Under the pieces are notes generated by a model. The model was not told where the DNA came from, did no database searches, and was given only the letters and a program-made list of their open reading frames with translations. Source: Vicinamibacteria bacterium (GTDB lineage: Bacteria; Acidobacteriota; Vicinamibacteria; Fen-336). From it: a stretch of DNA of 35,794 nt. Numbering within the stretch: position 1 is the first letter of the stretch; each line of letters begins with the position of its first letter. Shown one piece after another: positions 7,138 to 23,426 of this stretch. The stretch lies in the NCBI GenBank assembly GCA_023701125.1, contig JAMPXO010000047.1:1-35794 (forward strand). Direction: 5' to 3'. The position numbers were made by a program, and so were the translations under genes.

Positions 7138-8733
7138 ATGCTCGAAACCGTCGGCGTCTGGCGCCCCGGACAGGAGGCAGCCGCTTTTTCGCCCGAAGAA
7201 CTGCACCGGGCCTCCCTGCGTTTCCGCGAGCCCGCTCACGTCGTCCGCGAGGGCGGCCACGGCCGCGTCGGCGTCGCCTTCGGCGGCGAGGCCTCGTCGG
7301 AGGGCATGGGCTTTCCGCTGCTGGCCTCGTTGCCACCGCTCTACCCCGAGTGGCTCGGCGACCGGACGTTCTGCGAGGCGCACGGCGTCCGCTTCCCCTA
7401 CACGACGGGGCCGATGGCCAACGGCATCGCCACCACCCGGATCGTGATCGAGATGGGGCGCGCCGGCATGCTGGGCTTCTTCGGCTCGGCCGGCCTGCCG
7501 CCCGCGCGGGTCGAAGCGGCGCTCGACGAGATGGAGCGCGAGCTGGGCGGGCTGCCGTGGGGCGTCAACCTGATCCACTCGCCGAACGAGCCCGACCTCG
7601 AAGAGGCGCTGTGCGACCTCTACCTGCGCCGCGGCGTCGTGCGCGTGGACGCCTCCGCGTTCATGAACCTGACGCCGGCGATCGTGCGCTATGCGCTGTC
7701 GGGCCTGCGTGCCGACGGCGACGGCCGCGTGCTGCGCCAGCGCCACGTGTTCGCGAAGATCTCGCGGCCCGAGGTCGCCCAGCGCTTCCTGTCGCCCGCG
7801 CCGGCCGAGATCCTCGACGCCCTGGTGTCGCGCGGCGCGCTGTCGGCCGAAGAGGCGCGGCTCGCCGCGAAGGTCCCGCTCGCCGAGGACGTCACGGTCG
7901 AGTCCGACTCCGGCGGCCACACCGACAATCGCCCGCTCGGCTCGCTGTTCCCGTCGATCGCCAACCTGCGCGACCGCCTCGTCCGGCAACACGGATACGC
8001 CCGGCCGGTCCGACTGGGTGCGGCGGGCGGCCTGGGCACCCCGGCGTCCGTGGCCTCGGCCTTCGCACTCGGCGCGGCCTACGTGATGACCGGCACGGTC
8101 AACCAGGGCGCGGTCGAATCGGGCCTGTCCGAGGCCGGCCGCAAGATGCTGGCGGACGCAGGCCTCGCCGACGTGATCATGGCGCCCGCGGCCGACATGT
8201 TCGAGCTCGGCGTCAAGGTCCAGGTGCTGCGCCGCGGTTCGCTGTTCGCGCAGCGTGCGCTGCGGCTGTACGAGATCTACGTCGCGTACGACTCGCTGGA
8301 GGCGATTCCCGAAGGCGAGCGGGTCAAGCTCGAGAAGGAGATCCTGCGCGCACCGTGGCAGCAGGTGTGGGAGGAGACGCGGAGCTTCTTCGCCCAGCGC
8401 GACCCGCGCGAGAACGCCCGCGCCGAGCGCGAGCCGAAGCACAAGATGGCGCTGGTCTTCCGCTCCTACCTCGGCCGCTCCAGCAAGTGGGCGATCGCAG
8501 GCGAAGCGGACCGCCGGCTCGACTACCAGATCTGGTGCGGCCCGGCCCAGGGCGCGTTCAACGACTGGGCGAAGGGCTCGTTCCTGGAAGCGCCGGAGAA
8601 CCGTTCGGTCGTCCAGATCGCGCGCAACTTCCTGGAGGGCGCGGCGGCCATCACCCGCGCCCAGCAACTCCGCACGTACGGCGCCCCGATCCCCGCAGAA
8701 GCCTTCGACTTCACCCCGCGCCGCCTGGAGTAG
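7138..8733 (+). CDS. pfaD: PfaD, FMN-dependent trans-acting enoyl reductase of the PUFA synthase
   Basis: The 531-residue protein is a full-length PfaD-type reductase of the nitronate-monooxygenase-like TIM-barrel family. It reduces enoyl-ACP intermediates on the Pfa megasynthase in trans, using FMN and NAD(P)H. Visible family features are MANGIATTRIVIEMGRAG and FFGSAGLPP near residues 93-122, PWGVNLIHSPNEP, KISRPEVAQRFLSPAP, the SDSGGHTDNRPLG segment with His261, and the flavin-phosphate region LGAAGGLGTPASVASAF followed by VMTGTVNQGAVESG. The C-terminal third (YLGRSSKWAI, RLDYQIWCGPAQGAFNDW, VQIARNFLEGAA) is the typical PfaD tail. The ATG at 7138 gives the standard N-terminus. It is the first gene of the Pfa locus; pfaA follows after 150 bases containing regulatory-looking repeats. 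Confidence 0.95.
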   Translation: MLETVGVWRPGQEAAAFSPEELHRASLRFREPAHVVREGGHGRVGVAFGGEASSEGMGFPLLASLPPLYPEWLGDRTFCEAHGVRFPYTTGPMANGIATTRIVIEMGRAGMLGFFGSAGLPPARVEAALDEMERELGGLPWGVNLIHSPNEPDLEEALCDLYLRRGVVRVDASAFMNLTPAIVRYALSGLRADGDGRVLRQRHVFAKISRPEVAQRFLSPAPAEILDALVSRGALSAEEARLAAKVPLAEDVTVESDSGGHTDNRPLGSLFPSIANLRDRLVRQHGYARPVRLGAAGGLGTPASVASAFALGAAYVMTGTVNQGAVESGLSEAGRKMLADAGLADVIMAPAADMFELGVKVQVLRRGSLFAQRALRLYEIYVAYDSLEAIPEGERVKLEKEILRAPWQQVWEETRSFFAQRDPRENARAEREPKHKMALVFRSYLGRSSKWAIAGEADRRLDYQIWCGPAQGAFNDWAKGSFLEAPENRSVVQIARNFLEGAAAITRAQQLRTYGAPIPAEAFDFTPRRLE

Positions 8734-8746
8734 CCGCCGGCCGCAA

Positions 8747-8768
8747 CTGTCACAGTTCTGTCACAGTT
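8747..8768. repeat. Perfect tandem 11-bp palindromic repeat, probable operator
   Basis: CTGTCACAGTT occurs twice head to tail. The first copy with two preceding bases forms AACTGT-C-ACAGTT, a 13-bp palindrome with a central C; each copy contains CTGT-C-ACAG. The 11-bp period places both sites on one DNA face. An outer pair GCAACTGT/ACAGTTGC spans 8743-8770. The site lies 14 bases after the pfaD stop and 54 bases before a -10-like element, so a dimeric regulator binding site controlling pfaA-pfaC is inferred. No T-tract follows. Confidence 0.6.
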
Positions 8769-8821
8769 GCCGGCTGGCGTCCGCGGGCCCTGATCACCCT
8801 CTTCGAGACGGGTGAAAGAGA

Positions 8822-8827
8822 TAGAAT
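8822..8827 (+). promoter_or_regulatory. Candidate -10 element upstream of pfaA
   Basis: TAGAAT matches five of six sigma70 -10 bases and stands out in very GC-rich DNA. It is 56 bases before the chosen pfaA GTG. The -35 region is not recognisable, which would fit an activated promoter. It lies inside a longer open frame, which argues against the upstream start at 8812. Confidence 0.4.
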
Positions 8828-8867
8828 TCGCGGCTACCGCTCGAGGCCAGTGCCTGGCCGTGCGGCC

Positions 8868-8872
8868 GGAGG
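8868..8872 (+). promoter_or_regulatory. Ribosome binding site supporting the pfaA GTG start
   Basis: GGAGG ends 11 bases before GTG at 8884. The protein from this GTG begins directly with the KS strand FSPIAVVGLG, as expected for PfaA; the spacing is a little long. Confidence 0.5.
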
Positions 8873-8883
8873 TTTCTGCGAAC

Positions 8884-11800
8884 GTGGCCGACCGATTTTC
8901 TCCCATCGCCGTCGTCGGACTCGGTGCGCTCTTCCCCGGCTCCGCGGAACCCGGAGGCTTCTGGCGCGACATCGTCAGCGGCCGCGACCTGCTGACGGAC
9001 GTGCCGCCCGATCGCTGGCTGATCGAGGACTACTACGACCCCGACCCCTCGAAGCCGGACAAGACCTACGCGAAGCGTGGCGCGTTCCTGTCGCCGATCG
9101 AGTTCGATCCGCTCGAGCACGGCGTGCCGCCCACCGTCGTGCCCTCGACCGACACCTCGCAGTTGCTCGGCCTGATCGTCGCCAAGCAGGTGCTCGAGGA
9201 CGCCACGAAGCACCGCTTCGACAAGCTCGACCGCGACCGCGTCAGCGTCGTGCTCGGCATCACCTCCGCCCAGGAGCTGCTGGTCGAGGCCGCCTCGCGC
9301 CTGCAGCGCCCCGTGTGGGTCAAGGCGCTGCGCGAGGAGGGCGTGCCGGAGGACGAGGTCACGAAGATCTGCGACCGGATCGCGGGCTCCTACACGCCGT
9401 GGCAGGAGATGACGTTCCCGGGCCTGCTCGGCAACGTGGTCGCGGGCCGCATCGCCAACCGCCTCAACCTGGGCGGCACCAACTGCGTGACGGACGCCGC
9501 CTGCGCCTCCGCTCTGTCCGCGCTGACGATGGGCGTCTCCGAGCTGCGCCTCGGCGACTCCGACATGGTGATCGTCGGCGGCGTCGAGACGTTCAACGAC
9601 ATCTTCATGTACATGTGCTTCAGCAAGACCCCGGCGATGTCGCCGACCGGGGACTGTCGCCCCTTCTCGTCGAAGGCGGACGGCACCATGCTGGGCGAGG
9701 GCATCGGCTTCCTGGCGCTGCGCCGGCTCGAAGACGCCGAGCGCGACGGCGACGCGATCTACGCCGTGATCCGCGGCATCGGCTCGTCCTCGGACGGCCG
9801 CGCCAAGAGCATCTACGCCCCGGTCGCGGCCGGCCAGGCCAAGGCCCTGCGCCGCGCCTACGACGCCGCCGGCTACGGCCCCGACACCGTCGACATGGTC
9901 GAGGCCCACGCCACGGGCACCAAGGCGGGCGACGCCGCCGAGTTCGAGGGCCTGCGCACCGTCTTCGACGAGTCCGGGCGCGCCGATCGCCAGTGGTGCT
10001 CCGTCGGCTCGATCAAGTCGCAGATCGGTCACACGAAGGCGGCGGCGGGCGCCGCCGGCATGCTCAAGGCCGTGCTCGCGCTGCAGCACAAGACGCTGCC
10101 GCCGACGGCCAAGATCGACGCCCCGAACCCGCAGCTCGAGATCGAGAAGTCGCCGTTCTACCTGAACGTCGAAGCCAGGCCCTGGGTGCGCGACGCGCGC
10201 CACCCGCGCCGCGCCTCGGTCTCCGCGTTCGGCTTCGGCGGCAGCAACTTCCACGTGGCGCTCGAGGAGTACACCGGGCCTGCGTCGCGGGCGCTGCGCT
10301 ACCGCAACTTCCCCACCGAGCTGGTCGTGCTGTCGGCAACCACGCCCGAGGAGTTGCGGGCCGCGATCGCGAAGCTGCGCGGCGAGGCCGAGACGGCCGG
10401 CTGGCCGCGGCTCGCCCGGCTGTCGCAGGAGTCCTTCGACGCTGCGCGTCCGGCCCGGCTCGCGATCGTCGCCGGTTCCCTGGACGACCTGCTCGCCAAG
10501 CTGGCCGACGCCGACAAGCGCCTGGCCACAGCACCCCGCGACGCCTTCGCCGCACCCGGCGGAGCCAGCTACACGTTCGGCGCCGAGCCGGGCAAGGTCG
10601 CGTTCCTGTTCCCCGGCCAGGGCAGCCAGTCGCTGAACATGGGCCGCGACCTCGCCCTGGGCTTCGAGTCCGCCCTCACCGTCTGGGATCGCGCCGCGGC
10701 ACTGCCGTTCGGCAATACGCCGCTGCACGAGGTCGTGTTCCCGAAGGCGGTGTTCGACGACGCGTCGAAGGACGCGCTCGCGAAGCGGCTCACCGCGACC
10801 GAGTGGGCGCAGCCCGCGATCGGTGGCGCCAGCCTCGCCCTGCTTCGGCTCGTCGCGTCGCTCGGCCTGCGGCCCGACGCCGTCGCCGGTCACAGCTTCG
10901 GCGAGCTGGTCGCGCTGCACGCCGCGGGGGCCTTGTCCGAGGCCGACCTGCTGCGCGTCGCTCGCCAGCGCGGCGAGCTGATGGCCGGGGCCGCGGCGGC
11001 CACGCCGGGCGCGATGCTCGCGGTCGCCCACGCGGCCGACGAGGTGCGCGCGATCCTGGAGAGCGAGCGGCTCGAGGTCGTGATCGCCAACCACAACTCG
11101 CCGAAGCAGGTCGTGCTGGCCGGTTCCGTCGACGCCATCGCGGCGGCCGAGAAGGTGCTGAAGGCCCGCGGCCTGACCGCGAAGAAGCTGCCGGTCGCCA
11201 CCGCGTTCCACTCGTCGATCGTGGCTCCGTCGTCCGAGCCGTTCCGCGCCTTCCTGGCGGGGATCGACGTGGCGGCGCCGACGCTGCCCGTGTTCGCCAA
11301 CGAGACGGCGGCCCCCTATGCCGCCTCGGCCGACGCCGTGCGCGACGGTCTCGCGCGCCAGATCGCCAACCCGGTCCGCTTCGCGCAGATCGTCGAGGCG
11401 CTCTACGGCCTTGGCGTGCGCACGTTCGTGGAAGTCGGCCCCGGCGCGGTCCTCACGGGCCTGGTCGGCGAGTGCCTGGCGGGCCTTCCGCACGTCGCCG
11501 CCAACCTCGACCGCAAGGGCCAGCACGGCGTGACCGCGCTGTGGAACGGCCTCGCCCGCCTTGCCGTCGCTGGCGTGCCGCTCGCGTTCGCGAAGCTCTG
11601 GGAGGGCTACCGCACGCCCGCGCCGGAGCCGAAGAAGCCGGGCCTGCGCCTGACTCTGACCGGCGCGACCTACCAGAAGCCGTATCCGCCGAAGGGCGGC
11701 TCGGCCGCGCTGCCGAAGCCCAACCCGCCGCGGCCGCCGCAGACGGTCATCGCCGCCGCGCCCACGCCGACCGCGGCTGCGTCCGCGGCACCGTCGACTC

Positions 11801-14800
11801 ACCTCTCGGGAGGAACCGCCGTGGCGTCGGGACACGATTCGGGCTGGCTGGCCGCATGGCAGGAGATGCAGCGGCAGACGGCGGAGGCCCACGCCGCCTA
11901 CCAGCGCACGATGGCCGACACCCACGGCGCGTTCCTGCGCGCCAGCGAGACCTCGTTCCAGGCCCTGGCCGGGCTCGCCGGTGGTGCGATGCCCGCGTTG
12001 CCGGTGGCCGCCCCAGCGCCGGCGTTCACGGCTCCCGTCGCCGCGCCCGTCGCTTCGGCCCCCGCGCCCCTTGCGGCGAAGTCGGCGCCCGTCGCGCCAG
12101 CAGCCGCAGCCGTGGTCGCGCCCGCTCCGATCCCGGTGCCCGCGGCCGCTCCCGCGGGCGACCTGACGCCCGCGCTGCTGGAGGTCGTCTCCGAGAAGAC
12201 CGGCTACCCCGCCGAGATGCTGCAGCTCGAAATGGAACTCGAGGCCGACCTCGGCGTGGACTCCATCAAGCGCGTCGAGATCCTCGCCGCCCTCACCGAG
12301 CGCGTGCCCGGACTGCCCTCGATCGGCGCCGGCGAGATGGGCGCGCTGCGCACCCTCGGCCAGATCGCCCAGCGCCTGCAGGCCGACGCGCCTGCCGTGG
12401 CCCGGGTCGCGCCCATCGCGGCTCCGACGGCCCACGCTCCCGCCGCGGCGCCTGCGGCTGACCTCACGCCCGCGCTGCTCGCCGTCGTTTCCGAGAAGAC
12501 CGGCTATCCCGCCGAGATGCTTCAGCTCGAGATGGAGCTCGAAGCGGACCTCGGCGTCGACTCCATCAAGCGCGTCGAGATCCTCGCCGCTCTCACCGAG
12601 CGCGTGCCCGGATTGCCCTCGATCGGCGCCGGCGAGATGGGCGCGCTGCGCACCCTCGGCCAGATCGCCCAGCGCCTGCAGGCCGACGCGCCCGCCCCCG
12701 CGCGGGTCGCAGCCGCAGCCGTCGCGACGGCGCCGGCCGTGGCCAGCGCAGCACCGTCGACCGACGTGACGCCCGCGCTGCTCGCGGTCGTCGCCGAGAA
12801 GACCGGCTACCCCGCCGAGATGCTGCAGCTCGAGATGGAACTCGAGGCCGACCTCGGCGTCGACTCCATCAAGCGCGTCGAGATCCTCGCCGCCCTCACC
12901 GAGCGCGTGCCCGGACTGCCCTCGATCGGCGCCGGCGAGATGGGCGCGCTGCGCACCCTCGGCCAGATCGCCCAGCGCCTCGCCGGCAGCGCCATCGGCG
13001 TGCTGCACGTGGCGGCGGCTCCCGCGCCGCCTGCTGCGGCGCCTGCTCCTGCCGTGGCACCTGCGGCCGACCTCACGCCCGCGCTGCTCGCGGTCGTCGC
13101 CGAGAAGACCGGCTACCCCGCCGAGATGCTGCAGCTCGAGATGGAGCTCGAGGCCGACCTCGGCGTCGACTCCATCAAGCGCGTCGAGATCCTCGCCGCC
13201 CTCACCGAGCGCGTGCCCGGTCTGCCCCAGATCGCCGCCGGCGAGATGGCCCAGTTGCGCACGCTGCGCCAGATCGCGGCCCGCCTCGCCCAGGCCGACG
13301 CCGGCGCCGCTGCCGAGCCCGCCGCCGCGCACGTGGAGACGAAGCCGGCCGCCGAGCTCGGCCACTTCGCGCTCGAACTCCGCCCGACCGCGCCTGTCGG
13401 GTTGCCCGCGGGCGGCCTGTTCACGGCCGGTCCGATCGCGATCACCGACGACGGCAACGGCGTGGCCGCCGCCCTGGCCGAGCGCCTCGCACGGCTCGGC
13501 GCGGACGTCCGCGTCGTCGCCGAGGTCAGCGGCGAAGAGGCCGGCGCGATCGTGCTCTCCGGCCTGCGCAAGGTCGGCTCCGATGCCGACGTCGACGCCG
13601 CCTGCCGCGAGGCGTTCGAGGCCGCCCGCAAGTTGGCCGCGAAGCTGGCCGACAAGGGCGGGCTGTTCGTCACCGTCCAGGACACGGGCGGCGACCTCGG
13701 CCTCGCGGGCCGGGTGCCCGCCCGCGCCGCGCTCGGTGCGCTCGCGGGCCTCGCCAAGACCGCCGCCCAGGAGTGGCCGCTCGCCACCGTGCGCGCGATC
13801 GACGTGGCGGCGGGCGAGCCGACCGCCGTCGCCGACGCGCTGGCCGCGGAGCTGCTCAACGGCGGCTTCACCCGCGAGGTCGCGCTGGGCGCCGACGGCA
13901 TCCGCCGCGAGCCGTTCAGCGTCACCAGCGCTCCGGCCGACGCCCCACTGCCCTGCGACGAGACCTCGGTCGTCGTCGCCACCGGCGGCGCTCGCGGCGT
14001 CACCGCCGACTGCCTGCTGGCGCTCGCCCACAAGACCCACGCCCGCTTCGCCCTGCTCGGCCGCACCCCGCTCGTCGACGAGCCCGCCGCCGCCCGCGGC
14101 GTGGAGGGCGAGCGGGCGCTGAACCAGGCGCTGCTCGCCGCCGCCCGCGCGGAAGGTCGCGCCCTGACGCCCGCCGACCTGCGCTCCGCGGTCAACACGA
14201 TCCTCTCCGGCCGCGAGGTCCGCCATACCCTCGACGCGCTGAAGGCCGCCGGCTCCGAGGCCGTCTACGTCGCCACCGACGCCCGCGACGCGGCGGCCGT
14301 GGCCGCGGCGCTCGACGGCGTGCGCCAGCGCTTCGGCCCGATCACGGGCCTCGTCCACGGCGCAGGCGTGCTCGCCGACCGCCTGCTCCGCGACAAGACC
14401 TCCGAGCAGTTCGAACGGGTGTGGGGCACGAAGGTCCTGGGCCTGCGCGCGCTGCTGGCCGCGACCGGCGGCGACCCGCTGCGCTTCGTCGCGCTCTTCT
14501 CGTCGGTCGCTGGCCGCTGCGGCAACGCCGGCCAGTCCGACTACGCGATGGCCAACGAGGCGCTGAACAAGACCGCGGCGGCGCTGGCCGCCCAGCGCCC
14601 GGGCTGCCGCGTGATCGCGATGGGCTGGGGCCCGTGGGACGGCGGGATGGTGACGCCGGCCCTGCGCGAGCGCTTCGAGGCGCGCGGCGTGCCGCTCGTC
14701 ACCCGCGACCGCGGGCCCGAGATGTTCCTCGCCGAGCTCGCGCAGCACCCCGCCTCGGGCGCCGAGGTCGTGCTGGGCGGCGAGCCGCGACCCGAGCCGC

Positions 14801-15645
14801 TCGCCAGCGAGTCCGCGGCGCACGAGGCGCGCTTCGACCTGGCGGTCAATTCCCGCACCGAGCCGCTGCTGGCGGACCACACGGTCGCCGGCGCCCCGGT
14901 CGTGCCCGCGGCGTTCGCGCTCGACTGGTTCGCGCGCGCCGCCCTCGCCCTGCGCTCCGACCTGCGGCTCGCGGCCGTGCGCGACCTGAAGGTCGTGCGC
15001 GGCATCCGCGTCACCGACTTCGAGGGCCGCGGTACGCGGCTGACGCTGTCGGTGCGCGAGGTCTCGAACGGGACCGGCGCTCGGCTGGCGCTGGAGCTGC
15101 GTGGCGAAGGCAGCGTGCTGCACTACACGGCCGCCGCCGAGATGGCGGCCGAGGGCCTCGCGGGCCCGCAGGCCGCGCGCTCCGGCAGTGCGCGCAGCGG
15201 CGAGCCCGCGGCCAGCCTGTACGGCGAGACGCTGTTCCACGGCCCGGCCTTCCACGTGCTGCGTCACCTCGACGCGGTCTCGGCGAAGGGTGCCGCGGCC
15301 TCCTGCGCCGGCGTGCCCGAGCAGGGCTGGGCCGGCCGCTTCGCGCTCGACGTGGCTGCAGTCGACGGCGCGCTGCAGCTGGCGATCGTGTGGGGCCTGC
15401 AACAGGCGGGTGCGCACACGCTGCCCACGGGCCTCGGCGCGTTCGTGCCGCGTGGCGCCTTCCCCGCCCGCGGCCCGCTGCGGCTGGAGTTGATCGCCCG
15501 CCAGGCGACCGCGCTGCGCACCGTCTCGGACGTGCTGGCCTTCGACGCGGAAGGCGCGCCGGTGTTCGAGCTGCGCGACGTGGAGATGCACGCGGTGCCT
15601 GCCCCGGACCGCAAGGCCCCGGCGCTCCAGGGCGCGGCGTCCTGA
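8884..15645 (+). CDS. pfaA: PfaA-type PUFA synthase: KS-AT-ACP-ACP-ACP-ACP-KR-DH
   Basis: This 2253-residue iterative megasynthase carries out condensation, loading, ketoreduction and dehydration in polyunsaturated fatty acid synthesis. KS (about 6-460) has DAACAS with Cys207, EAHATGT with His342 and GHTKAAAG with His383. AT (about 570-905) has FPGQGSQ and GHSFGEL with Ser671. An Ala/Pro linker contains a helical motif near 990-1030. Four near-identical ACPs follow, each with LGVDSIKRVEI and phosphopantetheine serines at 1127, 1227, 1328 and 1430. KR (about 1690-1925) has TGGARG at 1700 and Tyr1887 in SDYAMAN. A double-hotdog polyketide DH (about 1975-2245) has HTVAGAPVVP with His1999 and DGALQ with Asp2161. 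All catalytic residues are intact. It needs a PPTase, not found here, and works with PfaC and PfaD. Confidence 0.95.
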   Translation: MADRFSPIAVVGLGALFPGSAEPGGFWRDIVSGRDLLTDVPPDRWLIEDYYDPDPSKPDKTYAKRGAFLSPIEFDPLEHGVPPTVVPSTDTSQLLGLIVAKQVLEDATKHRFDKLDRDRVSVVLGITSAQELLVEAASRLQRPVWVKALREEGVPEDEVTKICDRIAGSYTPWQEMTFPGLLGNVVAGRIANRLNLGGTNCVTDAACASALSALTMGVSELRLGDSDMVIVGGVETFNDIFMYMCFSKTPAMSPTGDCRPFSSKADGTMLGEGIGFLALRRLEDAERDGDAIYAVIRGIGSSSDGRAKSIYAPVAAGQAKALRRAYDAAGYGPDTVDMVEAHATGTKAGDAAEFEGLRTVFDESGRADRQWCSVGSIKSQIGHTKAAAGAAGMLKAVLALQHKTLPPTAKIDAPNPQLEIEKSPFYLNVEARPWVRDARHPRRASVSAFGFGGSNFHVALEEYTGPASRALRYRNFPTELVVLSATTPEELRAAIAKLRGEAETAGWPRLARLSQESFDAARPARLAIVAGSLDDLLAKLADADKRLATAPRDAFAAPGGASYTFGAEPGKVAFLFPGQGSQSLNMGRDLALGFESALTVWDRAAALPFGNTPLHEVVFPKAVFDDASKDALAKRLTATEWAQPAIGGASLALLRLVASLGLRPDAVAGHSFGELVALHAAGALSEADLLRVARQRGELMAGAAAATPGAMLAVAHAADEVRAILESERLEVVIANHNSPKQVVLAGSVDAIAAAEKVLKARGLTAKKLPVATAFHSSIVAPSSEPFRAFLAGIDVAAPTLPVFANETAAPYAASADAVRDGLARQIANPVRFAQIVEALYGLGVRTFVEVGPGAVLTGLVGECLAGLPHVAANLDRKGQHGVTALWNGLARLAVAGVPLAFAKLWEGYRTPAPEPKKPGLRLTLTGATYQKPYPPKGGSAALPKPNPPRPPQTVIAAAPTPTAAASAAPSTHLSGGTAVASGHDSGWLAAWQEMQRQTAEAHAAYQRTMADTHGAFLRASETSFQALAGLAGGAMPALPVAAPAPAFTAPVAAPVASAPAPLAAKSAPVAPAAAAVVAPAPIPVPAAAPAGDLTPALLEVVSEKTGYPAEMLQLEMELEADLGVDSIKRVEILAALTERVPGLPSIGAGEMGALRTLGQIAQRLQADAPAVARVAPIAAPTAHAPAAAPAADLTPALLAVVSEKTGYPAEMLQLEMELEADLGVDSIKRVEILAALTERVPGLPSIGAGEMGALRTLGQIAQRLQADAPAPARVAAAAVATAPAVASAAPSTDVTPALLAVVAEKTGYPAEMLQLEMELEADLGVDSIKRVEILAALTERVPGLPSIGAGEMGALRTLGQIAQRLAGSAIGVLHVAAAPAPPAAAPAPAVAPAADLTPALLAVVAEKTGYPAEMLQLEMELEADLGVDSIKRVEILAALTERVPGLPQIAAGEMAQLRTLRQIAARLAQADAGAAAEPAAAHVETKPAAELGHFALELRPTAPVGLPAGGLFTAGPIAITDDGNGVAAALAERLARLGADVRVVAEVSGEEAGAIVLSGLRKVGSDADVDAACREAFEAARKLAAKLADKGGLFVTVQDTGGDLGLAGRVPARAALGALAGLAKTAAQEWPLATVRAIDVAAGEPTAVADALAAELLNGGFTREVALGADGIRREPFSVTSAPADAPLPCDETSVVVATGGARGVTADCLLALAHKTHARFALLGRTPLVDEPAAARGVEGERALNQALLAAARAEGRALTPADLRSAVNTILSGREVRHTLDALKAAGSEAVYVATDARDAAAVAAALDGVRQRFGPITGLVHGAGVLADRLLRDKTSEQFERVWGTKVLGLRALLAATGGDPLRFVALFSSVAGRCGNAGQSDYAMANEALNKTAAALAAQRPGCRVIAMGWGPWDGGMVTPALRERFEARGVPLVTRDRGPEMFLAELAQHPASGAEVVLGGEPRPEPLASESAAHEARFDLAVNSRTEPLLADHTVAGAPVVPAAFALDWFARAALALRSDLRLAAVRDLKVVRGIRVTDFEGRGTRLTLSVREVSNGTGARLALELRGEGSVLHYTAAAEMAAEGLAGPQAARSGSARSGEPAASLYGETLFHGPAFHVLRHLDAVSAKGAAASCAGVPEQGWAGRFALDVAAVDGALQLAIVWGLQQAGAHTLPTGLGAFVPRGAFPARGPLRLELIARQATALRTVSDVLAFDAEGAPVFELRDVEMHAVPAPDRKAPALQGAAS
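12160..13290 (+). repeat. Four tandem ACP-coding repeats in pfaA
   Basis: Four units begin at about 12160, 12460, 12763 and 13069, giving periods of 300, 303 and 306 bases. About 220 bases of each unit encode almost the same ACP, with only scattered synonymous changes; the Ala/Pro linkers between them differ. Unit four diverges at its end (QIAAGEMAQLRTLRQIAARL against SIGAGEMGALRTLGQIAQRL). Such repeats point to duplication with gene conversion and are prone to assembly collapse. Confidence 0.93.
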
Positions 15646-15700
15646 CGGCCGGCGCGCGGCTCCCCCACGTGCGCTCCACGAACGTCGCCGGGTCGGCGCG

Positions 15701-18700
15701 ATGAGTTCGCGCCGATTCGCTCCGATCGCGATCGTCGGCCGCGCCTGCGTGCTGCCGGGCGCGCTGACGCCCGCCGCCTTCACGCGCGCGATCCAGGACG
15801 GGCGCGACCTGCTCGGCTCCGCGCCCGCGGGCCGCTGGCGCATCGACCCCGACCTGATCCAGGGCACCCCGGAATCCCCGGACCCCGACCGTTCATGGTC
15901 CGACCGCGGGGGCTACGTCAGCGGCTTCGAGCAGGCGTTCGACGCGACCGGCTTCGAACTGGCGCCCGAGCACCTGCGCGAACTCGACCCGCTGTTCCAG
16001 TGGCTGCTGCACTGCGGCCGCGAGGCGCTGCTCGAGGCGGGCATCGGCCCCGGCGAGTTGCGTCGTCGCGCCGGCGCCGTGGTCGGCAACCTCTCGTTCC
16101 CGTCGACCCGGCTCTCGGAGTTCGCCGAGAGCGTGTGGCGCGGGACCCCCGGCCCCCATCCCATCAACCGCTTCATGTCCGGGCTGCCGGCCCACACCCT
16201 GGCCCAGGGCCTGGGCCTCGGCCGCGACGCGTTCGCGCTCGACGCCGCCTGCGCGTCGTCGCTGTACGCGATCAAGCTGGCCTGCGACCGCCTCCACGAC
16301 GGCAGCGCCGACGTGATGCTGGCCGGCGCGGTCAACCGCGCCGACGACCTGTTCATCCACGTCGGCTTCTGCGCCCTGCGCGCGCTGAGTCGCACGGGCC
16401 GCAGCCGCCCGTTCCACGCCGAGGCCGACGGCCTGGTGCCGGCGGAAGGGGCCGCCATCTTCGTGCTGCGCCGGCTGGAGGACGCCGTCGCCTCGGGCCA
16501 GCGCGTGCTGGGCGTGATCCGCGGCGTCGGGCTGTCGAACGACGGCCGCGGCTCCGGGCTGCTCGCCCCCGCGGAAGAAGGTCAGGAGCGCGCGATGCGC
16601 GCCGCCTACGCGATGGCGGGCCTCGACCCGTCCGCCGTGTCGATGCTCGAGTGCCACGCGACCGGGACGCCGGTCGGCGATGCCACCGAGCTGCGCAGCT
16701 CGGCGCGCGTGTTCGCGGGCCACCCGGGGCTGCCGATCGGTTCGCTGAAGTCCAACCTCGGCCACCTGATCACGGCCGCCGGCTCGGCGGCGCTGCTGAA
16801 GGTGCTGGGCGCCTTCGAGCAGGCCTCGCGCCCGCGCACGCTGCACGTCGAGCGCCCCACCGACGCCCTCGCGGGCACCCCGTTCCAGTTGCTGTCCGAG
16901 GCCCTGCCGTGGCCCGAGACCGATCAGGCGCGGCTGGCCGCGATCTCCGCCTTCGGCTTTGGCGGCAACAACGCCCACCTGCTGGTCGAGGAGTACCGCC
17001 CCGCGGCGTCCCCGGCCGTCGCGGTCTCGTCGGCAGCGCCGCTCGACCCGATCGCCATCGTCGCCGCGGGAGCCTGCGTCGGCGGTGGCGAGAGCGCGGC
17101 CCGTTTCGTCCGCGACCTGTTCGCGGGCGACAGCCGGGTGCGGGTCGTCGAGGACCTGGGTGAAGCCGCCGCCGCGGACGAGTTGCACATCGACGGCGCC
17201 GGCCTGCGCTTCCCGCCGCGCGACCTCGAGCACGCGCTGCCCCAGCAGTTGCTGGTGCTGCAGGCCGTGCGCGAGGCGCTGGACGCGGCCCCGAAGCTGT
17301 CGCGCGAGCGCACGTCGGTGCTGGTCGGCATGCAGTGCGACGCGCAGGTCGCGCGCAACGGCGCACGCTGGCGAGCCGCGCAGTGGGCGCGCGACGCGGG
17401 CCAGGGCGACGCCTGGCGCGACGCCGCAAGGGCGGCGCTGTGCCCGCCGCTCGACTCGGCGGGCGTGGTCGGCACGATGCCCAACATCGTCGCCAACCGC
17501 CTGACCAGCCAGTTCGACCTCGCGGGCCCCGGTTACGCGGTCTCCGCCGAGGAGCTGTCGGGCCTGCGCGCGCTCGAGATCGCGGCCCGCGCGCTGCGCG
17601 CCGGCGAGATCGACGCCGCGGTCGTCGCGGCCGTCGACCTCTGCGCCGAGCCCGTGCACGCCACGGCTGCCGGCCACACGTTGCCCGCGGCCCAGCAGGT
17701 ACCGGGCGACGCGGCCGTCGCCCTCGTCGTCAAGCGTCTGGCCGACGCGGAGCGCGACGGCGACCCGATCCTCGCCCGGCTCGACGCCGATCCGACGGGC
17801 GTAGCCCCCATGGCACCGGTGACGGGCTCCGCCCGGCACCGGAACCCGACCGAAGACGGCCTCGGGTTCGGCACTCGCCGCGGCTCGATCGCGCTGAATG
17901 CACGCTTCGGCCATGCCCACGCGGCCAGCGGCCTGCTGCACGTGCTGGCGGCCGCCGTCGCCGTCGGCTACGGCGCGCGACCCACGAGCGAAGCTGGCGC
18001 CCTTGCCCAGCCGTGGCTCGGCGCGGAGCGCCACGCCCACGTTCACGTCGATGCCCTCGGCCACCAGTCCGCCACGGTGGTCCTGCGCAACGCCGGCCCG
18101 CGGCGCGCCGCCGCGATCGCGCCGCTGCCGCGGCTCCACCTCTTCAGCGGGGCGAATCCGCGCGACCTGCGGCGGGCGCTCGACACCGGCCACGCGGGCG
18201 GCGACGGACCCTGCCGGCTGGCGATCGTCGCCACCGCGGAGGAACTGCCGGCGCGGATCGATGCCGCCCGCCGCTACCTCGAGCTGCGGGCCCAGGCCCC
18301 CGACCAGCCGCCCCCGCACGGCGTCGCGTTCCGCAAGGAGCCGGCCGGCGGCGAACTGGCGTTCGTCTTCACCGGCCCCGCCGGCTCGTACTCCGGCATG
18401 GGCGCGGCGCTGCTGCTGGCGCTGCCCGAGTTGCAGGAGCGGGTCGAGGCGCGCTTCCCCAGCGTCGGCGAGGCCGCGGGCTGGGTGTACGACGGAAGCA
18501 CGCCGCACGACGCGGACAAGCTGTGGGGCTCGTCGATGCTGTGCCAGACCCACGCCGAGCTCACGCTGCGCCTGCTCGACCTGAAGCCGGAAGCGGCGAT
18601 CGGTTTCTGTGCGGGCGAGACCAACGCGCTCTACGCGCTCGGCGCGTGGAACGACATCGAAGCGCTGCGCCGCGAGATCCACGAGAGCGGGGTCTACGAC

Positions 18701-21700
18701 CGCGAGCTCGCCGGCGAGTTCCTGGCCTTGCAGCGGGCGTGGCGGACGGGCCCGGGCGAGCGGCCGCGGTTCGAGAGCTGGCGGGTGCTGGCCCCGCTCG
18801 ACCGCGTCCGCGAGGTCGTGGCCGGCGAACCTCGCGTCCACCTCTCGATCATCAACGCGCCGAGCGACGCGGTGATCAGCGGCGACCCCGAGAGCCTGCG
18901 GCGTGCGATCGCGAAGCTGGGGCCCGAGCGCGCGCGTTCGCTCGGCTACGACATGGTGATCCACGTGCCCGAGCTGGCCGCCTTCGAGGACGGCTGGCGG
19001 ACGCTGCACACGCGGCCCACCTCGCCGGTGCCCGGCATCCGTTTCTACTCGCAGGCGTTCATGGACGCGTACACGCCGGACACCAGCCTGGCGGCCGACG
19101 CGCTGACCGGCCAGGCGTTGCGCACGGTCGACTTCCCCGCGCTGATCGAAAAGGCCTACGCGGACGGCGTGCGGGTGTTCCTCGAGCACGGCCCGCAGGG
19201 CGGCTGCGCGCGCTGGATCTCGCGCACGCTGGGCGAGCGCGACCACGTCGCCACCTCGCTCGACATCGCCGGCGTGCCGCCGGTGGAGCAGGCGCTGGTC
19301 GCCATCGGCTGGCTGTGGGCCGCCGGCCTCGCGCCCAACGTCGAGCGGCTGCACGAGCGCCTCGCGACGGCCGAGGCGGCACTGTTCCCGCGCGAGCGCG
19401 CCCACGCGCTGCCGCTACGCTTCGCTGCCCACCCGAAGCGCCCGCAACTGCCCGCCGACCCGACCCGCATCGTCGCGGCGGCCGCCAAGGACACGATGAT
19501 CCCTGCCCCCGAGCTGCCGTCCGCGCTGGCCGAGTGGGGCCTCGCCCCCACCCCGCGCGCGAAGACGCCCCAGGGCCCGGCCAACGGCACCGCCGTCGCC
19601 GCGTGCCCCGCGCCGCAGCCAGTGCCAGCCGCGAGCGCCCCGCCGCGATCGGCGCCGCCCGCGCGGCCCGCCCCGCCGTCACCGGCGGTCGCACCGCCCG
19701 CACCGTTCGCCTCGAACCCGGCCGTGGTGCCGTTGGTGCCGACGGGCGTCCCGGACCGAATGTCGGGCCTGACGGGCCCGGCGGCGGTGCTGGCTGCGGA
19801 ATACGCCCGCGTGGCCCGGGTCCACGCGGAGTACCTGCAGACGCAGGCCGAGTCGCACGCTCGCTTCCTCGCGACCCGCGCGATGACGTCCCCGTTCCCG
19901 ATATCGGGTTCCGGAGCCGGGCAACCCCGGTCGTTCCCGACCGGCAGCCCGCTCCCGACCGGAACACCCGCCCCGACCGCGCCCCCGATCCCGCCCGCGG
20001 CCGTCGCCCGACCGGCGGCCGCCACCCCGACCGTCAGCCGTCCCCCGGCCGTGACGGCGCCCGCGAAGCCCGACGCCCCCGCCCGGCCGCAGGCCGTCCC
20101 GGTCGAGCTCGTCCCCGCGGCAGCGACGCAGCGCACGTCGGCCCTCTCCTCCCGCACCTCCTTCCCCGGCCCGGCCTTCTCCCGCGCCCAGCTCGAGACG
20201 CTGGCCTCGGGCCGCATCTCGGAGGTCTTCGGCAAGCTGTTCGAGCGCCAGGACGGTTACGAGCGCCAGGTCCGGATGCCCGAGCCGCCGCTGCTGCTGG
20301 CCGATCGCGTGGTCGGGATCGAAGGCGAGCCGGGCACGATGGGCACCGGCACGATCTGGACCGAGACGGACGTCGCGCCGGGCGCCTTCTACCTGCACGA
20401 GAACCGGATGCCCGCGGGCATCCTGATCGAGTCGGGTCAGGCCGACCTGCTGCTGATCTCCTGGCTCGGCGTCGATTTCCTGAACCAGGGCGAACGCGTC
20501 TATCGGCTGCTCGGCTGCGAGCTGACCTACCACGGCCACCTGCCGAGCGCCGGCGAGACGCTGCGCTACGCGATCACGGTCGACGGCCACGCCGCCCAGG
20601 GCGCGGTGCGCCTGTTCTTCTTCCACTACGACTGCGAGGTCGCGGGCCGCAAGCAGATCAGCGTGCGCGGCGGCCAGGCCGGCTTCTTCACGTACGAGGA
20701 ACTGGCCGACTCCGGTGGCGTGCTGTGGGACGCGGCGACCGAGACCCCGAAGCCGAACCCGCGGCTCGATCCCCCGGTGGTCGAACAGGTCGCGGCGCGG
20801 CTCTCGCGCGCGCAGCTCGAGGCGTTCGCGGCGGGCCGCGCCCACGAGGCGTTCGGCCAGGGCTTCCTGCGCGCGGCCACCCACGTCCAGCCGCCGCGGA
20901 TCGCCGGCGGCGACATGCTGCTGCTGCACGAGGTGGAGACGATCGACCCCAACGGCGGTCCCTGGCAGCGCGGGTATCTGAAGGCGCGCTGGGACTTCAC
21001 GCCCGACGACTGGTTCTTCAAGGGCCACTTCAAGAACGACCCGTGCATGCCGGGCACGCTGATGTTCGAGGGCTGCCTGCAGACGATGGCGGTCTACCTC
21101 GCGGCCCACGGCCACACGATCGCCCGCGACGGCTGGCGCTTCGAGCCCGTGCCCGAGGTCGCCTACAAGCTGCGCTGCCGCGGCCAGGCGATCCCGAGCT
21201 CGAAGACGCTGGTCTACGAGCTGTTCATCGAGGAGATCGAGGACGGCCCCGAGCCGACGCTGTGGGCCGACCTGCTGTGCACGGTCGACGGCCTGAAGGC
21301 CTTCCACTGCCGGCGCATGGGCCTGCGCCTGGTGCCCGACGTGCCGCTCACGCGGCGGCCCGAGCTGCTGCGTGCGCTGCCCGAGAAGGCGGCCGCCACC
21401 GGCCTCGGCATCACCTTCGACGACAAGGCCGTGCTGGCCTGCGCGTGGGGCCAGGCCAGCGAGGCGTTCGGCACGCTGTACCCGTCGTTCGACGGCCCCG
21501 CCCGCCTGCCGCGGCTGCCCGGCCCGCCCTTCTTCTACATGTCGCGGATCACCAGGGTCGACGGCGAGCTCGGTAACCGCCGCGCCGGCGCGACCATCGA
21601 GTGCACGTGGGACGTCGATCCCGAAGCGTGGTTCTTCGCGGCCAGCGGGTCGAACACCGCGCCGTTCTGCGTGCTGCTCGAGGCGATGCTGCAGCCCTGC

Positions 21701-22516
21701 GGCTGGCTGGCCCTGGCCTCCGGCTCCACACTGGCGGGCGGCAGCGACGGGCGCGGCCTGCACTTCCGCAACCTCGACGGCACCGGCCGCCTGCTGCGCG
21801 AGCTGCGCCCGGGCGACGGGCCGCTCGTCACCCGCATCACGCTGAAGGACGTCTCGGCCTCGGCGGGGATGACGCTCGTCACCTTCGACGTCGACGGCCG
21901 CCTCGGCGGCGAGCCCTTCTTCACCATCAACACGGGCTTCGGCTTCTTCCCGGCCGCCGCGCTCGCCCACCAGGTCGGCACTGGCGGCACGCCGGAGGAG
22001 CTGGCGTGGGCGAACCGGCCGAGCGAGGCGAGCCTCGACCTGGCGGCGCTGCGCGCGCGACAGCCGCGCACCGCCGGCCCCGAGCTGTTCATGTTCGACC
22101 GCATCACCGGCTTCTGGCCGACCGCGGGCGCCGCCGGCCTGGGCCGCATCCGCGGCGAGAAGGACGTGCGACCGGAGGAGTGGTTCTTCAAGGCCCACTT
22201 CTTCCAGGACCCGGTGATGCCGGGCTCGCTCGGCATCGAGGCCCTGATCCAGTTGCTGCAGGCCTGGATGCTGGCGACCGGCCTGGCCGCGGAGGGCGAG
22301 CGCTTCGCCCCGCTCGGCACGGGCGACGAAATGGTCTGGAAGTACCGCGGCCAGGTCATCCCCGAGCGTCACAAGGTGCTGCTGGAACTGGAGATCACGG
22401 CCGCGGGCCGCGACGAGAACGGGGCCTTCGCGCGGGCGGACGGCTGGCTCAGCGTGGATGGCATCCGCATCTACGCGGCGAAGAACCTGTCGATGCGCTC
22501 GGGTCCGCAGTTGTGA
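15701..22516 (+). CDS. pfaC: PfaC-type PUFA synthase: KS-CLF-AT-DH-DH
   Basis: The 2271-residue protein has five parts. KS (about 5-430) has DAACASS with Cys184, ECHATGT with His319 and NLGHLITAAG with His355. A chain-length-factor domain (about 450-800) has Glu617 in place of the Cys (VSAEELSG). An acyltransferase of PfaB type (about 880-1210) has GFCAGETNALYA, so Cys970 sits where Ser is usual. A long Pro/Ala linker (1230-1490) contains a helical HAEYLQTQAESHARFL motif. Two FabA-like dehydratase didomains follow: the first has LHENRMPAGILIESGQ and KGHFKNDPCMPGTLMFEG (His1776), the second a degenerate half and KAHFFQDPVMPGSLGIEA (His2166). It sets chain length and double-bond geometry together with PfaA. 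No C-terminal glycerol-phosphate acyltransferase domain is present. It lies 55 bases after pfaA. Confidence 0.95.
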   Translation: MSSRRFAPIAIVGRACVLPGALTPAAFTRAIQDGRDLLGSAPAGRWRIDPDLIQGTPESPDPDRSWSDRGGYVSGFEQAFDATGFELAPEHLRELDPLFQWLLHCGREALLEAGIGPGELRRRAGAVVGNLSFPSTRLSEFAESVWRGTPGPHPINRFMSGLPAHTLAQGLGLGRDAFALDAACASSLYAIKLACDRLHDGSADVMLAGAVNRADDLFIHVGFCALRALSRTGRSRPFHAEADGLVPAEGAAIFVLRRLEDAVASGQRVLGVIRGVGLSNDGRGSGLLAPAEEGQERAMRAAYAMAGLDPSAVSMLECHATGTPVGDATELRSSARVFAGHPGLPIGSLKSNLGHLITAAGSAALLKVLGAFEQASRPRTLHVERPTDALAGTPFQLLSEALPWPETDQARLAAISAFGFGGNNAHLLVEEYRPAASPAVAVSSAAPLDPIAIVAAGACVGGGESAARFVRDLFAGDSRVRVVEDLGEAAAADELHIDGAGLRFPPRDLEHALPQQLLVLQAVREALDAAPKLSRERTSVLVGMQCDAQVARNGARWRAAQWARDAGQGDAWRDAARAALCPPLDSAGVVGTMPNIVANRLTSQFDLAGPGYAVSAEELSGLRALEIAARALRAGEIDAAVVAAVDLCAEPVHATAAGHTLPAAQQVPGDAAVALVVKRLADAERDGDPILARLDADPTGVAPMAPVTGSARHRNPTEDGLGFGTRRGSIALNARFGHAHAASGLLHVLAAAVAVGYGARPTSEAGALAQPWLGAERHAHVHVDALGHQSATVVLRNAGPRRAAAIAPLPRLHLFSGANPRDLRRALDTGHAGGDGPCRLAIVATAEELPARIDAARRYLELRAQAPDQPPPHGVAFRKEPAGGELAFVFTGPAGSYSGMGAALLLALPELQERVEARFPSVGEAAGWVYDGSTPHDADKLWGSSMLCQTHAELTLRLLDLKPEAAIGFCAGETNALYALGAWNDIEALRREIHESGVYDRELAGEFLALQRAWRTGPGERPRFESWRVLAPLDRVREVVAGEPRVHLSIINAPSDAVISGDPESLRRAIAKLGPERARSLGYDMVIHVPELAAFEDGWRTLHTRPTSPVPGIRFYSQAFMDAYTPDTSLAADALTGQALRTVDFPALIEKAYADGVRVFLEHGPQGGCARWISRTLGERDHVATSLDIAGVPPVEQALVAIGWLWAAGLAPNVERLHERLATAEAALFPRERAHALPLRFAAHPKRPQLPADPTRIVAAAAKDTMIPAPELPSALAEWGLAPTPRAKTPQGPANGTAVAACPAPQPVPAASAPPRSAPPARPAPPSPAVAPPAPFASNPAVVPLVPTGVPDRMSGLTGPAAVLAAEYARVARVHAEYLQTQAESHARFLATRAMTSPFPISGSGAGQPRSFPTGSPLPTGTPAPTAPPIPPAAVARPAAATPTVSRPPAVTAPAKPDAPARPQAVPVELVPAAATQRTSALSSRTSFPGPAFSRAQLETLASGRISEVFGKLFERQDGYERQVRMPEPPLLLADRVVGIEGEPGTMGTGTIWTETDVAPGAFYLHENRMPAGILIESGQADLLLISWLGVDFLNQGERVYRLLGCELTYHGHLPSAGETLRYAITVDGHAAQGAVRLFFFHYDCEVAGRKQISVRGGQAGFFTYEELADSGGVLWDAATETPKPNPRLDPPVVEQVAARLSRAQLEAFAAGRAHEAFGQGFLRAATHVQPPRIAGGDMLLLHEVETIDPNGGPWQRGYLKARWDFTPDDWFFKGHFKNDPCMPGTLMFEGCLQTMAVYLAAHGHTIARDGWRFEPVPEVAYKLRCRGQAIPSSKTLVYELFIEEIEDGPEPTLWADLLCTVDGLKAFHCRRMGLRLVPDVPLTRRPELLRALPEKAAATGLGITFDDKAVLACAWGQASEAFGTLYPSFDGPARLPRLPGPPFFYMSRITRVDGELGNRRAGATIECTWDVDPEAWFFAASGSNTAPFCVLLEAMLQPCGWLALASGSTLAGGSDGRGLHFRNLDGTGRLLRELRPGDGPLVTRITLKDVSASAGMTLVTFDVDGRLGGEPFFTINTGFGFFPAAALAHQVGTGGTPEELAWANRPSEASLDLAALRARQPRTAGPELFMFDRITGFWPTAGAAGLGRIRGEKDVRPEEWFFKAHFFQDPVMPGSLGIEALIQLLQAWMLATGLAAEGERFAPLGTGDEMVWKYRGQVIPERHKVLLELEITAAGRDENGAFARADGWLSVDGIRIYAAKNLSMRSGPQL

Positions 22517-22602
22517 TGACTCGCAAAAGGGTGATCCCGCTCACCTGATCGGGCGAACCCGCGCCCCCCTTTCGGCGTCCAATGCAGCAGAAGGGGGACG
22601 CC

Positions 22603-22815
22603 ATGGCCGCTCTGCACGCCGCTGCCGCCGCCGTCGACGCCCGTTGCCCGCTCTGCGGAGACCTGATCCTCGCGGTCGGGCGCTCGGGCCGCGTCCTCGC
22701 CTCCGACTTGCACCCGGTGCCGATGTTCAAGCGCGGCCGCGGCGGCGAGGGCTTCATGCTCTGCGACGACTGCGGGGTGCTGGCCGAGTTGCCGCCAGGC
22801 ATGACCCTGAATTAG
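22603..22815 (+). CDS. Small zinc-ribbon-like protein downstream of pfaC
   Basis: The 70-residue protein carries two CxxC pairs, CPLCG near residue 15 and CDDCG near residue 57, which probably bind one zinc ion. Between them are GDLILAVGRSGRVLASD and a basic stretch MFKRGRGGEGFML. No DNA-binding helix is evident and no family is recognised. The start at 22603 is preferred to the in-frame ATG at 22582 because AAGGGGG lies seven bases before it. The gene is 86 bases after pfaC on the same strand, so co-transcription is possible. It might be a small regulatory or metal-binding accessory; function is unknown. Confidence 0.65.
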   Translation: MAALHAAAAAVDARCPLCGDLILAVGRSGRVLASDLHPVPMFKRGRGGEGFMLCDDCGVLAELPPGMTLN

Positions 22816-22904: not shown

Positions 22905-23426
22905 ATGGAGGATGAGACGCCCACGGGCGACGCGGCCGCGCCGGAGGCGCCCGCGCCCGCGGTCCCCGCCGAACCCGTACCCGAACCCGTGGTCGCGCCC
23001 GAACCATCGCCGGACCCCGTGGCCATCGAGCCGGCGCCGGTCCCTGCGCCCGCGCCGATGCCGCTGCCCCGCAAACCCGCTCCGAAGAAGGCCGCGGCGA
23101 AGAGGCCCGCGCAGAAGAAGCCCGCGGCCAAGAAGGCGGCCGCGAAGAAGCCGGCTGCGAAGAAGGCCAAGCCGGCCAGGAAGGCCGCGAAGCCCGCGAA
23201 GAAAGCGGCGAAGAAGGCCGCCCCGCGGAAGGCCAAGCCGGCCAGAAAGGCGACGCCCAAGAAGAAGGCGCCGAAGAAGGCGGCCCGGAAGGCCCCGAAG
23301 AAGGCGCCGAAGAAGGCCGTGCGCAAGGCGCCGAAGAGGGCCGCCCGGAAGGCCCCGAAGAAGATCGCGCCGAAGAAGAAGGCCGCCCGGAAGCCGGCCC
23401 GGAAGGCGAAGAAGAGCCGGCGCTAG
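22905..23426 (+). CDS. Histone-H1-like Lys/Ala/Pro-rich DNA-binding protein
   Basis: The 173-residue protein has two halves. Residues 1-55 are acidic and Pro/Ala-rich (ETPTGDAAAPEAPAPAV, PEPSPDPVAIEP). Residues 56-173 are strongly basic, made of irregular KKA, KPA, RKA and APKKA repeats ending in KKSRR. No folded domain, Cys or Trp is visible. Such tails resemble eukaryotic H1 C-termini and bacterial Hc1/AlgP-like proteins that bind and compact DNA; DNA binding is inferred from composition. ATG is preceded by GGAAGGAG. A hairpin terminator follows 33 bases after the stop. Repetitive coding means the length may vary between strains. Confidence 0.82.
   Translation: MEDETPTGDAAAPEAPAPAVPAEPVPEPVVAPEPSPDPVAIEPAPVPAPAPMPLPRKPAPKKAAAKRPAQKKPAAKKAAAKKPAAKKAKPARKAAKPAKKAAKKAAPRKAKPARKATPKKKAPKKAARKAPKKAPKKAVRKAPKRAARKAPKKIAPKKKAARKPARKAKKSRR

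Follow-up and report, generated by a model that had tools for sequence, protein, structure and literature searches.

Results

A cysteine in the active site of the putative terminal acyltransferase

The 35,794-nt stretch of DNA analyzed here (the window), contig JAMPXO010000047.1 of an acidobacterium of the class Vicinamibacteria, carries a real and complete polyunsaturated fatty acid (PUFA) synthase locus, pfaD-pfaA-pfaC. Its layout is ordinary, and its most unusual feature is a cysteine in the active site of the acyltransferase (AT) domain of PfaC. We consider it probable (about 0.7) that the locus encodes a functional synthase for long-chain PUFA, of the pfaD-pfaA-pfaBC type, whose terminal AT acts through a cysteine thioester and not an oxyester.

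It has been previously reported that the catalytic serine is fully conserved in PfaB (PMC12895367). In the window, the catalytic serine of the PfaC AT is replaced by Cys970, a feature absent from a preliminary description of this DNA, and we found no description of a natural cysteine in the terminal AT in the papers examined, none of those listed containing the string GFCAGE or GFCSGE. Among 81 homologues with a readable motif, the nucleophile was serine in 72 and cysteine in 9; the carriers of the cysteine were the three genomes of the window's genus together with L009, L172 and L181-L184 (a myxobacterial class). The codon differs silently between TGT and TGC among the genomes of the genus while the cysteine is kept. 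Chance or a sequencing error was ruled out as the source of GFCAGE, since independent assemblies share the cysteine with a different codon. Parsimony on the AT tree gave two changes to cysteine; a single clade was not rejected (approximately unbiased (AU) test, p 0.30).

The AT of the window is 88% identical to those of the relatives L003 and L004. In the same comparisons dN/dS was 0.175-0.185 for the AT, 0.21-0.22 for the ketosynthase (KS) and 0.51 for the linker; the AT value is as low as that of the KS and far below that of the linker. The AT is under purifying selection. An AlphaFold2 model of the domain (pLDDT 92.8) found its best match in the PDB in S. baltica PfaB (9ry8; Z 36.9, rmsd 2.3, 317 residues, 22% identity). 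The next match had a Z of 31.0, and FabD and the ATs of polyketide synthases (PKSs) were clearly behind PfaB. The match to the TIGR02816 model was weak (32 bits, below the 144-bit cut-off), and the GxSxG serine of PfaB-type ATs is missing. Since the other features tested for the family are present, the substitution reads as a variation inside the PUFA synthase family.

Identity of the synthase

The three open reading frames (ORFs) are uninterrupted and their codon composition is of the coding type (Table 1). PfaD passed the TIGR02814 model (627 bits, cut-off 449), and among solved chains it was closest to PfaD 6lkc and 4yx6, with the PKS enoyl reductases (ERs) DfnA and MlnA behind them. PfaA passed TIGR02813 (1622 bits, cut-off 1010). 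Pfam resolved PfaA into a KS, an AT, four phosphopantetheine-binding domains, a ketoreductase (KR) and a PKS-type dehydratase (DH), and PfaC into a KS, a second KS-like domain, an AT and FabA-like DH. The four acyl carrier protein (ACP) repeats of PfaA share 86-92% DNA identity and no two are identical; the best solved sequence match of the PfaC KS was 6riw (annotated ORF10; 359 bits). Family models above their cut-offs and intact catalytic motifs support the identity of the system as a PUFA synthase.

These results agree with the preliminary description on three intact genes and their domains, with open ORFs, family models, Pfam and motifs all concordant. It was also right that the locus has no separate pfaB, that a PfaB-like AT is fused into PfaC, and that no glycerol-phosphate acyltransferase domain stands at the PfaC end.

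Table 1. Coordinates of genes, domains and active-site motifs of the pfa locus in the window
Feature	Position	Strand	Basis
pfaD, trans enoyl reductase, 531 aa	7138..8733	+	TIGR02814; closest solved chains are PfaD
pfaA, 2277 aa, KS-AT-4xACP-KR-DH	8812..15645	+	TIGR02813, Pfam domains, motifs
PfaA KS	8899..10116	+	PF00109, PF02801; Cys in DAACAS
PfaA malonyl-type AT, GHSFGE	10603..11472	+	PF00698, 135.9 bits; motif
Four tandem ACPs	12150..13290	+	PF00550, four stretches; phosphopantetheine Ser codons at 12262, 12562, 12865, 13171 (DSIK)
PfaA KR	13972..14640	+	PF08659; S-Y-N motif
PfaA PKS-type dehydratase (DH1)	14818..15606	+	PF14765, PF21089; HxxxGxxxxP
pfaC, pfaBC-type fusion, 2271 aa, KS-CLF-AT-DH-DH, no C-terminal DH4 or AGPAT	15701..22516	+	Domains and comparison with relatives
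PfaC KS	15722..17011	+	PF00109, PF02801; DAACAS, CHATGT, KSNLGH
PfaC chain-length factor (CLF)	17033..18190	+	VSAEE replaces active Cys
PfaB-like AT in PfaC	18350..19270	+	PF00698; AlphaFold2 model; PDB match PfaB 9ry8
AT active site GFCAGE	18602..18619	+	Cys970 codon TGT at 18608-18610
AT catalytic-type His1088 in YDMVIHVPE	18962..18964	+	Invariant column in AT alignment
First FabA-like DH, double hot dog	20177..21280	+	PF07977; HFKNDPCMPG
Second FabA-like DH, double hot dog	21368..22498	+	PF07977, PRK05174, FabA models; HFFQDPVMPG
AGPAT, acylglycerol-phosphate acyltransferase.

In a tree built on KS and DH columns, the window PfaC grouped with PfaC from myxobacteria, actinobacteria and other acidobacteria in a well-supported set, separate from a largely deltaproteobacterial set with the AT motif GYSLGE. 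In a KS-only tree this set also took in Azospirillum and stood apart from the PKS outgroup; 6riw, a solved KS-CLF of the PfaC type, adjoined the set with moderate support and on a long branch, and was the only such reference in trees that did not hold the Shewanella, Sorangium and Aetherobacter proteins. Branching inside the set was mostly weak. The grouping of the PfaC KS with PfaC sequences, and not with the PKS outgroup, bears out the family assignment by phylogeny.

Distribution and C-terminal endings of PfaC

All three genomes of the genus carry pfaC. With the PfaC DH region as query, strong matches (E <= 1e-29) were found in 19 of the 193 genomes of the class examined, and PfaC was found in 5 genomes of a 396-genome sample of the phylum. 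The nearest PfaC relatives (79-80% identity) belong to 'Vicinamibacteria bacterium ACD1' and 'Acidobacteria bacterium ACD2', on which we found no papers. In five genomes of the myxobacterial class (G215, G217, G218, G219 and G220) the query matched twice, on different contigs, which suggests two Pfa loci in each.

PfaC of the window terminates directly after its second FabA-like DH, with neither a PKS-type DH4 nor an AGPAT. After these DHs the relatives show four kinds of ending: none, a PKS-type DH only, an AGPAT only, or both; many of them carry the AGPAT. The first is common to the window, G014, L014, L116, L175-L177, L188 and nearly all of the GYSLGE set; a PfaC lacking DH4 and AGPAT is common among the relatives. 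An AT was not detectable in PfaC of L010, L017, L173 and L174, all with a PKS-type DH and an AGPAT, or of L179 and L185, which have neither. That the AT is lost only where an AGPAT is present is therefore not a general rule.

Phosphopantetheinyl transferase and genomic setting

The preliminary description had reported no phosphopantetheinyl transferase (PPTase). This holds for the locus and the window, but not for the genome: a genome-wide search for an Sfp-type PPTase found one gene, at C220:14150-14870, the single ACPS-family gene seen there (G000; L001, L094), and a genome devoid of PPTase is thus ruled out. The two other genomes of the genus likewise have one PPTase each. No AcpS gene was found in the genome (95% complete assembly), and the one Sfp-type enzyme may serve both fatty acid synthase and PUFA synthase. 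In the sister family (L131, G014:C69; L092, G016:C203), pfaD has a different Sfp-type PPTase gene immediately upstream, whose product shows 33-36% identity to the PPTase of the window genome. We found no second PfaA-like or type I synthase in the genome, and no condensation domain of a non-ribosomal peptide synthetase (NRPS).

Gaps of 78 bp (pfaD/pfaA) and 55 bp (pfaA/pfaC), taken from the coordinates, fit an operon. We found neither a stand-alone pfaB nor a gene for a PPTase or an AGPAT in the window, and saw no tailoring genes there beside the locus. Upstream lie amidase, cyclophilin and DUF4349 genes, and downstream alcohol dehydrogenase (ADH), QueF, EAL and nucleoside genes. These flanking genes are ~70-93% identical and keep their order in the two other genomes of the genus (G001, G002), so the locus is settled in this genus. 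As these relatives with matching flanks are Vicinamibacteria, a myxobacterial host was ruled out. In addition, a 77-aa ORF (22582-22815, + strand), 65 bp 3' of pfaC, has two CxxC pairs, is 89% identical in L003 and L004 and has no Pfam match. A 173-aa Lys/Ala/Pro-rich ORF (22905-23426, + strand) resembles histone H1-like proteins and likewise has no Pfam match.

Discussion

Proposed mechanism

It has been previously reported that synthases of this family perform malonyl-primed iterative synthesis, with late elongation by the KS-CLF and a PfaB-type AT that serves, late in the process, as an acyltransferase or a thioesterase (PMC12895367, PMC9702510). In the scheme that we propose, the sole Sfp-type PPTase would prime the ACPs of PfaA, and malonyl units would be loaded on the four tandem ACPs for condensation, ketoreduction and dehydration by PfaA. 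PfaD would reduce some enoyl intermediates, the FabA-like DHs of PfaC would dehydrate others and isomerise them to cis double bonds, and the PfaC KS-CLF would carry out late elongations. The finished chain, putatively a C18-C22 PUFA, would then move to the PfaB-like AT, where Cys970 and His1088 would form a thioester in place of a serine oxyester, and the acyl group would pass to an ACP, CoA or a phospholipid acyltransferase. Because no AGPAT is fused to PfaC, lipid acylation would fall to separate enzymes. An active cysteine AT with an acyl-enzyme of the thioester kind is our inference; a preference for transfer above hydrolysis is a guess beyond that. The S608C mutant of Moritella PfaB retained palmitoyl transfer (PMC12895367). 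Chimaera work has described product control as complex and exerted by several DH domains (PMC6731297), and we agree with the preliminary description that the product cannot be read from the sequence.

Several points weigh against a working cysteine-dependent synthase. Phe precedes the putative nucleophile and takes the position of Tyr607 of Moritella PfaB, which was crucial in that enzyme (PMC12895367); in the window's clade this residue may be Tyr, Phe, Leu, Val or Ile. An AT changed from serine to cysteine can be far slower, by 200-fold in a PKS AT (cited in PMC12895367). Furthermore, of the PUFA KS domains extracted from metagenomes, more than 92% lie outside those whose products are known (PMC10308959), and the genus is represented here by three genomes, of which two are nearly identical.

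Alternative explanations

The AT could instead be retired, a structural domain that holds the megasynthase together without acyl transfer while a separate enzyme releases the product. The entire loss of the AT from several relatives, with or without an AGPAT, is in keeping with this, as is the retention of inert starter-unit acyltransferase (SAT) domains for structure in fungal PKSs (PMC10401856). However, purifying selection on the AT is as strong as on the KS, the histidine and the motif are kept, and the nucleophile is a cysteine, not an inert residue, and recurs in separate lineages; we therefore regard a retired domain as unlikely. We also doubt that the product is a specialised polyunsaturated chain, such as a hydrocarbon precursor or lipid tail, in place of membrane fatty acids like eicosapentaenoic acid (EPA), docosahexaenoic acid (DHA) or arachidonic acid (ARA). 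In its favour, Shulse and Allen proposed a role in supplying olefin synthesis for clusters of Type I and possibly of Type L (PMC3098273), there are hybrid PUFA-synthase-like pathways to lipopeptides (PMC13291983), and the AGPAT of characterised myxobacterial Pfa3 is absent from the window PfaC. Against this stand a genome in which neither an NRPS nor a second type I synthase was found, the lack of tailoring genes adjoining the locus (Ole genes were not searched for), and the EPA present in acidobacteria with the same gene order (PMC8841776).

An identity of the proteins as glycolipid-type synthases or as ordinary polyketide synthases is highly improbable. Although KS and AT domains are common to type I PKSs, TIGR02813 and TIGR02814 were matched above cut-off, the KS tree places PfaC elsewhere, and the solved chains nearest to PfaD are those of PfaD and not of PKS ERs. 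The paired FabA-like DHs of PfaC are also missing from heterocyst glycolipid (Hgl) synthases, whose PfaC homologue has no such domains (PMC3098273).

Comparison with known systems

The compact pfaD-pfaA-pfaBC layout is already known, and the locus is a new member of that arrangement. Fusions of the pfaBC kind occur in Types C, D, H, I and L of Shulse and Allen (PMC3098273), whereas marine gammaproteobacterial pfaABCDE loci (Types A and B) have a separate pfaB. The window shares its fused pfaBC with Types L and I, and its 5' pfaD with Type L; however, Type L is drawn as KS-CLF-DH2-AT, whereas in the window PfaC the AT comes after the CLF and before the DHs, which stand last. In Acanthopleuribacteraceae, two acidobacteria with pfaD-A-B/C and an unlinked pfaE, Acanthopleuribacter pedis and Sulfidibacter corallicola, contain EPA at 6.2% and 12.2% (PMC8841776). 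They match the window in phylum, gene order, an AT fused in PfaC and the unlinked pfaE, but belong to another group of the phylum. A further acidobacterial genome (G583; 10.2 Mb), from a class other than that of the window, has a serine AT (GYSSGE) and a PfaC ending in a PKS-type DH and AGPAT, whereas the window has a cysteine AT and neither ending.

The resemblance to myxobacterial Pfa1-Pfa2-Pfa3 (Aetherobacter, Minicystis; PMC6731297, PMC8436480) noted in the preliminary description was upheld in gene order: ER, KS-AT-ACP-KR-DH, KS-CLF-AT-DH-DH. The PPTase is at a separate locus in both, and the broad PfaC clade is common with myxobacterial genomes, but described Pfa3 carries a C-terminal AGPAT that the window PfaC lacks. 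DH4 is present in M. rosea and absent from A. fasciculatus and the window. PfaB of Shewanella and Moritella (9ry8; PMC12895367) offers the best structural match for the AT fold; the window AT differs in being fused in PfaC, in reading GFCAGE against the conserved Tyr-Ser motif, and in having no N-terminal KS' of its own. The SAT domains found in non-reducing PKSs of fungi (PMC10401856) also perform AT-type transfer via the cysteine of GxCxG, but they load starters and belong to another enzyme family and position, so the analogy is mechanistic only.

Significance

Our class survey extends PUFA synthase genes to about one-tenth of the Vicinamibacteria genomes examined. Product release and chain-length control by PUFA synthases are an open practical question, and the names given to PfaB-type ATs include thioesterase, terminal transferase and product selector. 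With a natural Ser-to-Cys AT under purifying selection, and with relatives that lack the AT or carry an AGPAT, a comparison set for transfer versus hydrolysis is at hand. Tentatively, and at somewhat less than even odds, we propose that Vicinamibacteria and myxobacteria harbour a branch of naturally cysteine-dependent terminal ATs, with at least two origins or moves by parsimony (although one origin was not rejected), that hands over PUFA chains via a thioester. If so, transfer to a carrier would be favoured over hydrolysis, and the branch would have an off-loading route unlike both that of the serine AT and that of the fused AGPAT.

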